A stretch of 44,033 bases of DNA, taken from Fibrobacter succinogenes (GTDB lineage: Bacteria > Fibrobacterota > Fibrobacteria > Fibrobacterales > Fibrobacteraceae). Location of the stretch: the NCBI RefSeq assembly GCF_902779965.1, contig NZ_CACZDK010000030.1:1-44033 (forward strand). Direction: 5' to 3'. The position numbers and the translations under genes were made by a program. Below the pieces are notes generated by a model. The model was not told the DNA's origin and did not search any database. It saw only the letters and a program-made list of their open reading frames with translations. Positions within the stretch are counted from its first letter, which is position 1. Every line of letters begins with the position of its first letter. This document shows, piece after piece, positions 27,378 to 40,397 of this stretch.

Positions 27378-27382
27378 TTGTC

Positions 27383-27404
27383 ATTCCCGCCTCCGAGCGG
27401 GAAT
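27383..27404. repeat. Palindromic repeat (ATTCCCGC/GCGGGAAT)
   Basis: 8-bp perfect arms around CTCCGA, preceded by GTC. The same arms with loop CTGC occur inside tilS at 37314-37333 in the opposite sense of the GTCATTCCC tail. Common dispersed intergenic repeat type. Confidence 0.85.
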
Positions 27405-27445
27405 CTACATGAACACGCGACAATATCGCGAACAACCTTTACAAG

Positions 27446-34848: not shown

Positions 34849-35850
34849 ATGTACGAGATTTTCAAATTAGTCATTTCAGATATAAACATTTATGGGCTCT
34901 GCATTTTTTTGCCGAGCCTTTTGGCATTATTTTTTACGGCAAAATTCAGAAATGACAAAAAGAAACTGAAAATCATTTTAACAGCAATTCCGTCAATCGT
35001 ATTATGCTATTTGCTGATTTACTGTTCCTTTACATTTATATACATTTTCATAATCTGCAGCGCACTCGCAATTTTGTACGGAGCGTCAATTGCAGTCGGA
35101 TTCTATTTTAGCAATAAGAAAGTTATCCTTTGTCTCGTTGCGATTCTACTCCTCCCCTGTTCCCTTTTATTACTCACTACTTTTGAGTATTACGAATTGA
35201 GGGAGCCTTTCGGCTATATCAAAGACAAAACCTTGCCAGACAGCCTCAGCAACAGAAACTTTGATTACGAGGTGAAGCTAAATCATGCCGATGCATGGGG
35301 CAATAACCATTACACCGTCTCTGTGCGTGGGAAGCACTTGACCGATTCCAGTGAAGATTCAATTATCTATTGCAAGCAATATAGAATGTGCACCGGTGTA
35401 ACATTTGTTTTTGAAGATTCGGCAAGCAGCGACACTCAATCCGTACAATCTACGCCACGGAATATCTGCCAGTGGAAACCATTGCCACATGAGAAAAAAG
35501 CAACATTGCTTCAACTCAAAAAATTGGCAGAGAAATATAGCAGAGAATACACATTTAGCTTTGTATTGGATGGATATACATTCGGTATCGATATTTTCGA
35601 CTTCAAAAAGAAAACGATTCGTTCACTGGAACTCGGGAACGCAACAAATTTCGATGACGAGGTCCCTAACGCCAAGGAAATTGTCAACCTCGGACTTGCC
35701 TTAATTCCGTTCAGCGATTCTGCAAACGTAGAACACAAATGCAATGACCGTCCGCCACAAATATTCGTAGAAATGAAAACCGATTCGACGCAAGATTCAA
35801 CAAAGCAAGAAATTCGAAAACCTGAACGACGCAGAGCCACGAAGCATTGA
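34849..35850 (+). CDS. Membrane protein with soluble C-terminal domain, unknown function
   Basis: 333 residues. Four hydrophobic stretches lie in the first 115 residues (IYGLCIFLPSLLALFF, AIPSIVLCYLLIYCSF, FIICSALAILYGASIAVGF, VILCLVAILLLPCSLLLL). A soluble part of about 210 residues follows, with a short Cys pair (YCKQYRMC) and a basic Arg/Lys end (RKPERRRATKH). No enzyme motif. It is 21 bp after the small lipoprotein and 48 bp before the next lipoprotein, so these four genes may act together at the envelope. Confidence 0.72.
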   Translation: MYEIFKLVISDINIYGLCIFLPSLLALFFTAKFRNDKKKLKIILTAIPSIVLCYLLIYCSFTFIYIFIICSALAILYGASIAVGFYFSNKKVILCLVAILLLPCSLLLLTTFEYYELREPFGYIKDKTLPDSLSNRNFDYEVKLNHADAWGNNHYTVSVRGKHLTDSSEDSIIYCKQYRMCTGVTFVFEDSASSDTQSVQSTPRNICQWKPLPHEKKATLLQLKKLAEKYSREYTFSFVLDGYTFGIDIFDFKKKTIRSLELGNATNFDDEVPNAKEIVNLGLALIPFSDSANVEHKCNDRPPQIFVEMKTDSTQDSTKQEIRKPERRRATKH

Positions 35851-35904
35851 TCTATTTTTTAGATTTTATATACCCCCAAACTCAACTCTAGAAGGAGTTT
35901 GTTT

Positions 35905-36957
35905 ATGAAAAAACTATTATCATTTCTTTTTGCCACTTTGGTAATTATCGCTTGCAGCGATGAAAATCCGACAAATGCATTTGGGAATAAAGATTCATCA
36001 GGTGGAAATAATAACTTTTCCGCACAAAATTCCAATTATACCGAAACATATCGTTATTTTTCTTTTTTAGACACAACACATCTTCGATTTGGAAGTACTC
36101 AAGTTCCAAAATCATGTCAATTCAATCCAGAAACAAAAACTTTTTCATGGGTTGACCTAGGATATTCGCTTTTAGTCGATCTTGATACAGTTCCCGAATT
36201 ATTTGATACAGCACCCAAATCATGTAATGGTTGTAGCAAATACTGGGGAACATTCGGATTCCATTTGTCTAACGATACGCTATATGAATGCACTGGACAT
36301 AGCGATCCATGTGAGGATCCTCCCCATGGAGATGGAGAAGCGATTGTTTATACGGGTTCATCAAAATCACTATTCGGAACGTGGAATTACAAAGGTCGTT
36401 ATATTGATGGAATTTTCAGTGAAAACAGTTTCGGAATGGAACTAGTTATAACACCAACTTACCTTTTAAATAAGTATTACTATGATTTTAATAATACTCC
36501 GGTGTATGGCTATGTTCATATTTGCGAACCATTGGATATATTGTACCCTCAAGACACTCTTTTTTCCCAATGCAGACATTATTACAACAATGTGAGTAAA
36601 TATAATGGCAAATACATGTACCACAACAAATCTACAAATACCTTCCAAGATGTTCTTGATACGGTATTTTTCTCGGAAAATTTTTGGGTAACCACAACAA
36701 ACAAGGATGTAACAATATTCATAAATAACAACCTTATACAAGTTTCTTACGACATAACCTTGTATAAGGAAAGAACCGAAGCAAGAACAACCGTTTTGTT
36801 CAAAGACAATCAATGTACTTTAATCTTCAATAGAGCAGATAACATAGATAAAGAACGCTGCGAAGAACTAACAATTGATGGAGAAACATCCGACATTTTT
36901 GACTATTCAAACAATGAAGAGTATCAAAATTGTCTTAAAAGTTTTCAATTAAACTAG
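35905..36957 (+). CDS. Lipoprotein, paralog of the one at 33317
   Basis: 350 residues from the ATG at 35905, with GAAGGAG seven bases upstream; the frame is open from 35899. Lipobox IIAC followed by SDENPTNAFG. Shares with the 33317 gene the CQFNPETKTFSW and LFGTWNYKG phrases and the overall length. Several paired cysteines (SCNGCSKYWG, CTGHSDPCEDP) may form disulfides. Function unknown. tilS follows after 10 bp and may be read from the same transcript. Confidence 0.8.
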   Translation: MKKLLSFLFATLVIIACSDENPTNAFGNKDSSGGNNNFSAQNSNYTETYRYFSFLDTTHLRFGSTQVPKSCQFNPETKTFSWVDLGYSLLVDLDTVPELFDTAPKSCNGCSKYWGTFGFHLSNDTLYECTGHSDPCEDPPHGDGEAIVYTGSSKSLFGTWNYKGRYIDGIFSENSFGMELVITPTYLLNKYYYDFNNTPVYGYVHICEPLDILYPQDTLFSQCRHYYNNVSKYNGKYMYHNKSTNTFQDVLDTVFFSENFWVTTTNKDVTIFINNNLIQVSYDITLYKERTEARTTVLFKDNQCTLIFNRADNIDKERCEELTIDGETSDIFDYSNNEEYQNCLKSFQLN

Positions 36958-36967
36958 ATTTATTAAA

Positions 36968-38287
36968 TTGATTTTTGACTTAATTGAAAATATTCGCCGT
37001 CATGGTTTCAAGCGCCTACTGCTTGCAGTTTCGGGCGGTTTGGATTCCATTTGCCTCGCGCATTATTTCATTGCAAATCGCGAAGCGCTCGATATCGAAT
37101 GGTTGGGAATTGCCCATGTGCATCACGGGCTGCGGGTCGGAACGGCCGACAGAGACGCCGCTTTTGTCGAAGCATTTGCAAGCAAATACAAGATTCCGTT
37201 TTTCTTGAAGCGTTTGGATGGCGACACGCTTAAAGCGGCCGAGGGTTCGCTTGAAGAAAACGCAAGGGATGCAAGGTACAAAGCGCTGGTCGAGATTGTT
37301 GATGAAATTGGAGATTCCCGCCTGCGCGGGAATGACAAAAGCAGCGACCCCATTCCACACAGCTCTATCGCCATCGTCACGGCGCACCATGCAAACGATC
37401 AAGCGGAAACGATGTTCATGCGACTCAAGCGCGGAACGACGCTTGCAGGGTTACGAGGGATTCAAGAAGTTCGCATTCTAAGCAATAGCCAGGGCGTTGC
37501 GGGGCTGGCGCCTGAAGCCCCGCTAGAATGGGTGATGGAAGACCGTGCAACGGGCTGCAATCAGGGGGAGACCTCCCCCACGCATCGCTTCGAGAATGAC
37601 AAAGCAGAAACAAACTGTCTACCGTCTACTTCCTACTTCCTACTAAGAATCTTCCGGCCATTCCTGAATGTGACTCGCACGGAATTGCTCGAATACGCAA
37701 GAAAGAACAAATTAACTTGGTGCGAGGACGAAAGTAATGCGGATGTGAAATTTGCTCGCAACAAAATTAGACACGAGTTTTTGCCGAATCTGGAAAGTGA
37801 ATGCCCCGGAGCAATCAAACAGCTTTGCCGCATTGCAGAACTTGCCGACAAGGCGTATGAAAAAGTGACGAGGAAATGCGACATACTTTTCGCGACATGC
37901 TTGAATAAACGTATGGATTCCCTCCCTTCGGTCGAGAATGACGCGATCCAGGATGACAACGCCCACTCCTCATACCTCAAAGAGAGCGAAGCGACCGACC
38001 CCACACCCCATACCACAATCTCGCTGGACAAGAAAAAGCTCAACAGGGTGCTCCGCGCACACGCCGATGCTGACCTTTCGGAGATGTTCCGGTTATGGCT
38101 TTCGGAAAAGGGTTTTCGGTTCCCGATTGGATTTTTCTATGGCCCGAAAGAGCCTGCTCATGTGAAAATTCCGGTCCATGCCGTTTACCGCAGGCGTTCC
38201 ATCGTCAAAATACGCCATACGGTCTGGATTTGCGAGTTCGAGGACGCGCTATCCGCTGCAAAATTTGTATTTTGCGAAAAGAAATAA
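36968..38287 (+). CDS. tilS: tRNA(Ile)-lysidine synthetase with in-frame repeat inserts
   Basis: 439 residues from a TTG start, 10 bp after the preceding gene. The ATP-pyrophosphatase loop SGGLDS is near residue 22, with HVHHGLR and ENARDARY after it, and [20 protein letters not shown], all TilS hallmarks. The enzyme converts C34 of one tRNA-Ile to lysidine so that it reads AUA. Three segments break the usual alignment: [17 protein letters not shown] (about residues 117-135), a long one between GIQEVRI and RIFRPF (about 177-225), and one after LNKRM (about 317-352). Their DNA is palindromic, intergenic-repeat type. The catalytic motifs stay intact and ftsH follows closely, so the gene is probably functional. 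Confidence 0.92.
37314..37333. repeat. Palindromic repeat inside tilS, insert 1
   Basis: ATTCCCGC-CTGC-GCGGGAAT followed by GACA, in frame, encoding DSRLRGND. Same arms as the intergenic repeat at 27383-27404. Confidence 0.9.
37474..37650. repeat. Intergenic-type repeat block inside tilS, insert 2
   Basis: About 175 bases holding two strong hairpins, GCGGGGCT/AGCCCCGC (37499-37523) and GGGGGAG/CTCCCCC (37564-37579), then CTTCGAGAATGAC and the direct repeat CTACTTCCTACTTCCTAC. A similar CTTCCTACTTCTAACTTCCTAC is found in true intergenic DNA near 21190. The whole block reads through in frame. Confidence 0.8.
37915..38025. repeat. Repeat-like block inside tilS, insert 3
   Basis: Contains GGATTCCCTCCC...GAGAATGAC and a second GGATGAC, the tails of the dispersed repeat family, followed by two GACCCCACACC-like stretches. 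In frame; encodes a polar segment between two TilS regions. Confidence 0.65.
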
Positions 38288-38297
38288 AAGGATTATA

Positions 38298-40397
38298 ATG
38301 AATAAACCTCAAAAGCCAACAGCACCGTTTAAGAACAAGAATTTTATCATCGTTCTCATCATGCTCCTCATGCTTTTCGTCATGTTCCCCATGACCGGGA
38401 AAGAATCCAACAAGGATATTACCCGCACCGAATTTTTAGCATTGATGGGAGATTCCACCAAGGTTATCACGGAGCTTACGCTTCAGAAAACTCCTGACGG
38501 CGTGATTATCGAGGGCGCTTACGAGATGTCCCCAGATGAAATAGCCATAGCCCAAAAGAACCAGAGCACTCTTGCGAGATTCACACGCGCAAGCAGCGAC
38601 ATGAAACACAAGCATTTCAAAAGCCACATGCTCGAAGTTTCGAACGAACAGATTTCGGCATGGGAAACGTTCAAAGGAGTCAAGGTCAAGGTCATTCACG
38701 AATCGACTACTTGGATTGATACGCTCATTGCATTTTTGCCCGCTATTTTGCTGATTGCTTTCTTCTACATCATGATGAGCCGTCAGATGGGCGGTGGCGG
38801 TAAGAGCCCGTTCTCGTTTGGCAAGAGCCAGGTGCGTCAGCTGAACTCGCAAAAAAAGACGACGTTCAACGATGTTGCCGGCTGCGACGAAGCGAAGCAG
38901 GACTTACAGGAACTCGTCGAATTTTTGAAGGACCCGAAGAAATACGATGCTTTGGGCGGTCGCATTCCAAAGGGTGCGCTCCTTGTTGGCCCTCCGGGCA
39001 CGGGTAAGACTCTCCTCGCCCGCGCTGTCGCTGGCGAAGCTGGTGTGCCGTTCTTTAGCATGTCCGGTTCGGACTTTGTGGAAATGTTCGTTGGCGTGGG
39101 CGCAAGCCGCGTACGTGACTTGTTTGAAACAGGCAAGAAAAACGCTCCGTGCATTTTGTTCATCGACGAAATCGATGCCGTGGGGCGCCAGCGTGGTGCT
39201 GGTCTCGGGGGCGGTCACGACGAACGCGAACAGACTTTGAACCAGTTGCTTGTTGAAATGGACGGTTTTACCGCTAACGAAGGCGTGATTTTGATTGCCG
39301 CCACGAACCGTCCGGATGTGCTCGACAAGGCACTTTTGCGTCCGGGCCGTTTTGACCGTCAGATTGTGGTGGGGCTCCCCGACCTCAAGGGCCGCGAAGA
39401 AATTTTGAAGGTGCACTTGAAAAAACGCAAGGTGCCTCTTGCTCCGGATGTTGACGTGAAGGCTGTTGCCAAGGGAACGCCTGGACTTGCCGGTGCGGAC
39501 CTCGAAAACTTGGTGAACGAAGCAGCGCTCCTTGCCGCAAGGTTCAACAACAAGAAAGTGACGATGCTCGACTTCGAAGAAGCACGCGACAAACTCAGCA
39601 TGGGTGCTGAACGCCGCACGCTCCTGATGACTGACGAAGAAAAGCGCCACACCGCCTATCACGAAGCGGGCCACGCCCTCATGACCTTGCTTTGCAAGCA
39701 TTCGGATCCGCTCCACAAGATTACGATTATCCCGCGCGGACGCGCTCTCGGCGTGACCATGAGTTTGCCCGAACGCGACCAGGTGAGCTACAGCCGCGAA
39801 TACGCCGAAGAACGCATCATGATTATGATGTCTGGCCGCCTCGCCGAACTCATCTTCTTCAACCACCAGAGCACCGGTGCTTCGAACGATATCCAGCGCG
39901 CGACAGAGCTTGCCCGCAAGATGGTCACGGAATGGGGCTTCGACGAAGAAATCGGACCTGTCTGCTACAGCCGCGCCGATGGCGAAGTGTTCCTAGGTCG
40001 AGAGATTAGCAAGCCGAAGGAAATGTCCGAAATGATGGCCGAAAAAATCGACAACGCCATCAACGGCCTAATCAAGCGCATGGACGCTGCGGCTCGCAAG
40101 CTCCTTGAAGAAAACAAGGACAAACTTATCGACCTCGCCGAAGCGTTGTTTGAATTTGAAGTGCTCGACCGCGAAGAAATCGACAGGGTCATGGCTGGCG
40201 AAAAGCTCACCGGAACAAAGAAGAGCCGCCAGTACCAGGCTATGGAAGAACTTGCAAAGAAGCGCGAAGAAGAAAACACTCCACCACCTGATCCGGGTGA
40301 CCAGCCGCCGGTCGCACCGATTGCCGACGTACAGCCCACCCCCGTCGCAGGTAATGAAACTGCAACAAACTCCGTCAAAGAAACCGAACAACAGTAA
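38298..40397 (+). CDS. ftsH: ATP-dependent zinc metalloprotease FtsH
   Basis: 699 residues from the ATG at 38298 (GGAT seven bases upstream); the frame is open further up inside tilS. Two membrane helices (about 16-32 and 150-170) flank a periplasmic domain. The AAA module has Walker A GPPGTGKT near 231, Walker [12 protein letters not shown] near 288 and the SRH region [20 protein letters not shown] near 336. The protease site HEAGH is near 454. Membrane-bound quality-control protease acting on membrane and short-lived cytoplasmic proteins. The tail is Pro-rich ([21 protein letters not shown]). Starts 10 bp after tilS, a widespread pair. Confidence 0.97.

Follow-up and report, generated by a model that had tools for sequence, protein, structure and literature searches.

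In-frame dispersed repeats at three loop sites of tilS in Fibrobacter

In-frame insertion of repeat DNA into genes has been described before, the best-known case being Rickettsia: there the presence of palindromic elements (RPEs) in frame within genes is established, and a guanylate kinase that carries an RPE is active (reviewed in PMC2229807). Intragenic REPs have been described in several species, often in enzymes acting on DNA or RNA, including tRNA pseudouridine synthases (Di Nocera et al., PMC3733652). The CGTC-1 REPs, which carry CGTC or the allowed variants TGTC or CCTC as a tag at one end, have been equated with RPE-6 of R. conorii and with dRS3 of Neisseria (PMC3733652). Heptanucleotide direct repeats (TAACTGA) are known from Beggiatoaceae, Cyanobacteria and Bacteroidetes, mostly between genes with a few inside ORFs (PMC4679880). 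Fibrobacter is not mentioned in PMC3733652, and we found no reports of such in-gene repeats from Fibrobacter in the open-licence literature searched.

Insert sites in the window tilS gene

The window, meaning the whole 44,033-nt stretch of Fibrobacter DNA analyzed here, carries a tilS gene (Table 1). Its product matches Pfam ATP_bind_3 (1.6e-47) and NCBIfam TilS_N (3e-49), contains the PP-loop motif SGGxDS with the invariant residues S22-G24-D26-S27 kept, and yields a structural model whose best matches are solved TilS structures. We conclude that the gene encodes TilS, predicted from family and motif to form lysidine on tRNA-Ile(CAU). An initial annotation had described the frame as open and the catalytic motifs as intact despite three blocks of repeats, and this is what we observe. 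A second intact tilS was looked for as a sign against that annotation, and none was found in the own genome (4.09 Mb, 76 contigs), where the gene is present once. The TilS_C domain (PF11734) was detected in L007 and L049, whereas L065 and the window TilS (window 38012–38287) gave no match to it; the latter two proteins end earlier than those of L007 and L049; by these comparisons the domain appears to have been lost in the window clade.

Table 1. Features of the window discussed in the text.
Feature	Position	Strand	Description
Intergenic palindrome after SAM synthetase gene	27379..27405	+	8-bp arms as in block 1
tilS, tRNA(Ile)-lysidine synthase	36968..38287	+	One open frame, 439 aa, TTG start
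Site 1 insert (aa 111-135)	37298..37372	+	Alignment and model; flanked by helix 95-119 and strand 134-137
REP-like palindrome in block 1, CGTC-1-like	37313..37337	-	TGTC-ATTCCCGC-GCAG-GCGGGAAT-C, read on the - strand
Site 2 insert (aa 170-227)	37475..37648	+	Alignment and model; flanked by strands 168-171 and 226-229
Dispersed hairpin element, site 2	37484..37585	+	GCGGGGCT..AGCCCCGC and GGGGGAGACCTCCCCC; other genome copies; fold z -2.26
CTACTTC heptanucleotide array, site 2	37626..37643	+	18-mer with 57 exact genome matches, overlapping included
Site 3 insert region (aa 307-348)	37886..38011	+	Alignment and model; includes natural linker of ~22 aa; precedes strand at 349
Dispersed repeat ATGGATTCCCTCCCTTCGGTCGAGAATGAC, site 3, not palindromic	37913..37942	+	Genome search and fold
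Dispersed repeat CTCAAAGAGAGCGAAGCGACCGA, site 3	37976..37998	+	Genome search and insert repeat survey

The three blocks had been annotated as palindromic and placed at 37300–38025. Repeats are present there, as three separate stretches and not as one block, and the palindromic character holds for block 1 and in part for block 2. DNA folds gave the block-1 palindrome and the intergenic palindrome downstream of the SAM synthetase gene identical 8-bp arms (ATTCCCGC/GCGGGAAT), an identity already recognized in the annotation, which located the latter at 27383; their loops measure 4 and 6 nt, respectively. Block 2 consists of the ~100-nt hairpin element followed by the heptamer array, which is not palindromic, and the folded piece of block 3 (37915–37950) showed no palindrome (z = 0.19). 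Copies of the ~100-nt element, with separate hairpins, were also seen in L147, L149, L152 and L167.

Searching the own genome with positions 37290–38040 yielded 52 matches besides tilS, covering all three blocks, and the repeat loci inspected were mostly intergenic. The exact arm pattern occurs 17 times in the genome, versus 0 times for a reversed control; within the window it is found at two sites only, in tilS and at 27379, with 0 expected from shuffles. When the inserts of all species were compared by blastn with intergenic DNA from a 10% sample of the own genome, 27 of 82 matched, versus 0 of 82 length-matched core pieces. The pattern GGATYCC..GGRATGAC was rejected as a counter for the superfamily, being too strict (13 matches). 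Judged by sequence, the three TilS loop segments are dispersed repeat DNA of intergenic type, as had been proposed.

The AlphaFold model has a core mostly with pLDDT >90, values <50 at 174–222 and 317–343, a dip around 120–133 and an extra low stretch at 390–407. In this model all three inserts coincide with low-confidence loops, predicted to be disordered, which is in line with the suggestion in the annotation of tolerated insertion sites at surface loops.

Block 1 resembles the CGTC-1 REPs. The TGTC variant of the tag lies at the end of both the tilS and the 27379 copy on the matching strand, both copies have an 8-bp stem starting with AT, and the many dispersed copies are mostly intergenic. 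The 4-nt loop of these REPs is seen in the tilS copy, with 6 nt in the copy at 27379, and where the REPs have a CCA tail the tilS sequence past the stem reads CTCC. As these REPs have been equated with RPE-6 (PMC3733652), the likeness to Rickettsia palindromic elements noted in the annotation finds support. Blocks 2 and 3, in contrast to the CGTC-1 REPs, consist of repeats of other kinds. REPs mobilized by RAYT differ further, as the Y1/RAYT transposase gene (PF01797) has a count of 0 in the own genome while being present in 10 of 37 genus genomes; Y1 transposase was therefore rejected as the mobilizer here.

Variation across the genus and in other genes

The TilS alignment comprised 36 genus sequences, many of them from metagenome bins, and nine outgroup sequences. 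The inserts range from 6 to 89 aa at site 1, 2 to 107 aa at site 2 and 9 to 74 aa at site 3. Five genus members (L029, L049–L052), several of which branch deep, lack the site-1 and site-2 inserts and have the natural linker of ~22 aa at site 3. Conservation in distant TilS proteins was looked for as a sign against the inserts being repeats, and the site-1 and site-2 inserts are likewise absent from other families and from the solved structures. One and the same loop holds different repeat families in different species. On a core tree with many poorly supported forks, the minimum numbers of length-state changes are at least 28, 27 and 19 for sites 1, 2 and 3, and those of presence changes at least 4 for site 1 and at least 8 for site 2, all counted on one tree. 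These comparisons indicate that the inserts are derived, in frame and recurring at common loops genus-wide. The named tilS repeats lie nearly all in one orientation (25 of 27 for the palindrome F1) and those in other genes in both; the one-way orientation of F1 runs counter to simple random insertion, though the species are not independent.

The annotation had taken the repeats to accumulate in one essential enzyme. This was not borne out: the genome search for the same repeats, which it had also called for, located in-frame copies in many further Fibrobacter genes, and TilS is therefore one of several repeat-rich proteins. The tilS repeats occur in frame within a GSCFA protein, L-asparaginase, MnmE (all three with the ATGGATTCCCTCCCTTCGGTCGAGAATGAC repeat) and a Fib_succ_major protein. 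In a 400-kb sample, with gene calls made within this analysis, an HrpA-like helicase has three in-frame inserts, and in-frame repeats are also carried by a GluQ-RS-like enzyme, an RsuA/RluB-type pseudouridine synthase, an arginase-family protein and a periplasmic binding protein. A survey around 20 places in genome G018, chosen for the heptamer CTCGTCT, showed arrays in frame in topoisomerase III, UvrA, HrpA, RNase HII, a NUDIX hydrolase, a CbiX/NAD-binding protein and two proteins without Pfam match. By eye, the HrpA inserts of the own genome and of G018 occupy one common loop. The stretch separating G3 from G4 in the GTPase domain of MnmE differs in length among the genus members compared. 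By simple count, about half of the genes on this short repeat-bearing list encode nucleic-acid enzymes, a leaning that Di Nocera et al. also saw for intragenic REPs (PMC3733652). Matches at the N-termini of TadA, a MotA/TolQ-like protein, an unassigned 333-aa protein in L165 and a DUF4130 protein were not counted, as the true start may lie downstream.

Some of the G018 arrays (L239 747–1472, L240 287–2899, L245 711–1508, L247 170–2101) encode 7-residue peptide repeats, and the peptide repeats RRETRDE and SRLSSLV sit inside the NUDIX, topoisomerase III, RNase HII and UvrA proteins. For annotation this means that variable Fibrobacter segments of this kind should be read as repeat DNA and not as domains.

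Like RPEs, the Fibrobacter repeats are dispersed between genes and lie in frame inside unrelated conserved genes. RPEs, however, are 105–146 bp long, with a long stem and terminal inverted repeats, whereas the Fibrobacter units are ~25–30 nt, and the block-2 element of ~100 nt has separate hairpins. Further differences are that the repeats belong to several families, among them heptamer arrays and repeats that are not palindromic, that palindromes are confined to block 1 and part of block 2, that common loops are refilled genus-wide, and that the host is a free-living gut member of the Fibrobacterota with a genome of ~4 Mb. We conclude that the Fibrobacter inserts work like intragenic REPs and RPEs but are not RPEs. 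The heptamer arrays share with the TAACTGA arrays a 7-bp unit dispersed between genes with a few cases inside ORFs; the latter arrays, however, affect mainly protein ends or hypothetical proteins (PMC4679880) while the Fibrobacter arrays lie in internal loops of conserved enzymes, with a unit that differs by species. Relative to the open literature searched, the new elements are the phylum, the presence of species-specific heptamer arrays within conserved enzymes at internal loops, the genus-wide reuse of loops and the occurrence of near-identical copies at more than one loop of a gene.

The in-frame repeats of Rickettsia can readily be explained by small population size. A free-living gut genus in which common loops are filled in species after species offers many natural replicates, which bear on how repeats enter genes, what proteins tolerate and how protein length changes.

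Source of the repeats and competing explanations

Heptamer units differ by species, and the type in tilS tends to equal the common type of the genome (CTCGTCT, p = 0.0008; ATCAATC, p = 0.002; rank test, uncorrected for relatedness), suggesting the own pool of repeats as the source. In G034 tilS has an array without exact copies elsewhere in the genome. Different loops of one tilS often share near copies, as in L028 (140 bp, 93.6%), L027 (159 bp, 92%) and L007 (97 bp, 92%), in a common direction and mostly in a common frame. Of the L028 composite, the heptamer part alone was found elsewhere in G018, within 20 stretches chosen for that heptamer. At site 1 an 81-nt difference separates the window from L065; it can be positioned between ATGACAAAA copies, the mark that a duplication or deletion at shared repeat ends would leave. 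Taken together, the own-pool heptamers, the loop-to-loop copies and the 81-nt difference fit copying by recombination or template switching.

We consider it very probable that intragenomic repeats insert and turn over in surface loops, where they are tolerated and filtered by selection; that they are translated and nearly neutral we infer. Dispersed Fibrobacter repeats, comprising REP-like palindromes, other short repeats and heptanucleotide arrays, would enter genes and intergenic DNA alike. Stop-free copies that arrive in frame in disordered surface loops, of which TilS has three, would be tolerated, build up and turn over. Recombination or template switching among repeats may give rise to new copies, also from loop to loop within one gene, and lengths would shift by duplication or deletion of units at shared motifs such as ATGACA. 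Selection would then remove the events that break the frame.

Alternatively, an enzyme could actively copy composites of heptamer and palindrome in frame, from intergenic DNA into genes and from loop to loop. We regard this as unlikely; if true, it would keep generating loop diversity in enzymes that process nucleic acids.

A still less likely explanation is that TilS has recruited the inserts for a function (tRNA binding, regulation or stability), so that selection maintains them and does not just tolerate them. They persist in most of the genus, many repeat-bearing genes encode nucleic-acid enzymes, and the inserts could conceivably compensate for the loss of TilS_C in the window clade. However, F1 occurs in each of the three frames (10, 9 and 6 times) and so encodes no conserved peptide, different families occupy the loops, and lengths at site 2 run from 2 to 107 aa. 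In addition, L021 and L023, nested among the insert bearers of the tree, are nearly empty at sites 1 and 2, and the predicted disorder of the inserts also speaks against recruitment.

We give very little credence to the segments being untranslated, removed from the RNA or bypassed by the ribosome in the manner of introns or mobile bypassing elements, as palindromes and repeats midway in a conserved gene might suggest. A skipped segment would not need an open frame, yet the inserts are stop-free in 36 of 36 sequences: they contain 0 stops in 3115 codons, versus 115 and 172 when the remaining forward frames are read, the frames having been picked as open frames matching TilS, each one uninterrupted ORF. 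Moreover, an Rfam search gave no match above the gathering score, the ~100-nt element included.

Misjoining of repeats into tilS by assembly or binning is the least credible explanation, for despite the many metagenome bins, one of which (G001) holds two different tilS genes, the loops are filled, always in frame, in G004, G008, G014, G030 and G033 (20 contigs, 99–100% completeness), and the window control genes for FolP and a PgpH-like protein are without inserts, each with one uninterrupted match in every genus genome searched where it was found. The two tilS genes of G001, on contigs C17 and C76, probably reflect a mixed bin and not a true duplication.

Two further observations concern the tilS region. 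Between 35400 and 39000 the window shows mosaic identity to L065, at 0.98–1.00 over most of 35400–37000 and 37700–39000 and 0.71–0.95 across 37000–37700, which may place a recombination break close to tilS sites 1 and 2. In the C-terminal half of L051 TilS, a stretch (SGSRNEFGTTTRDVFGMT) has the look of a repeat inserted at a fourth site.
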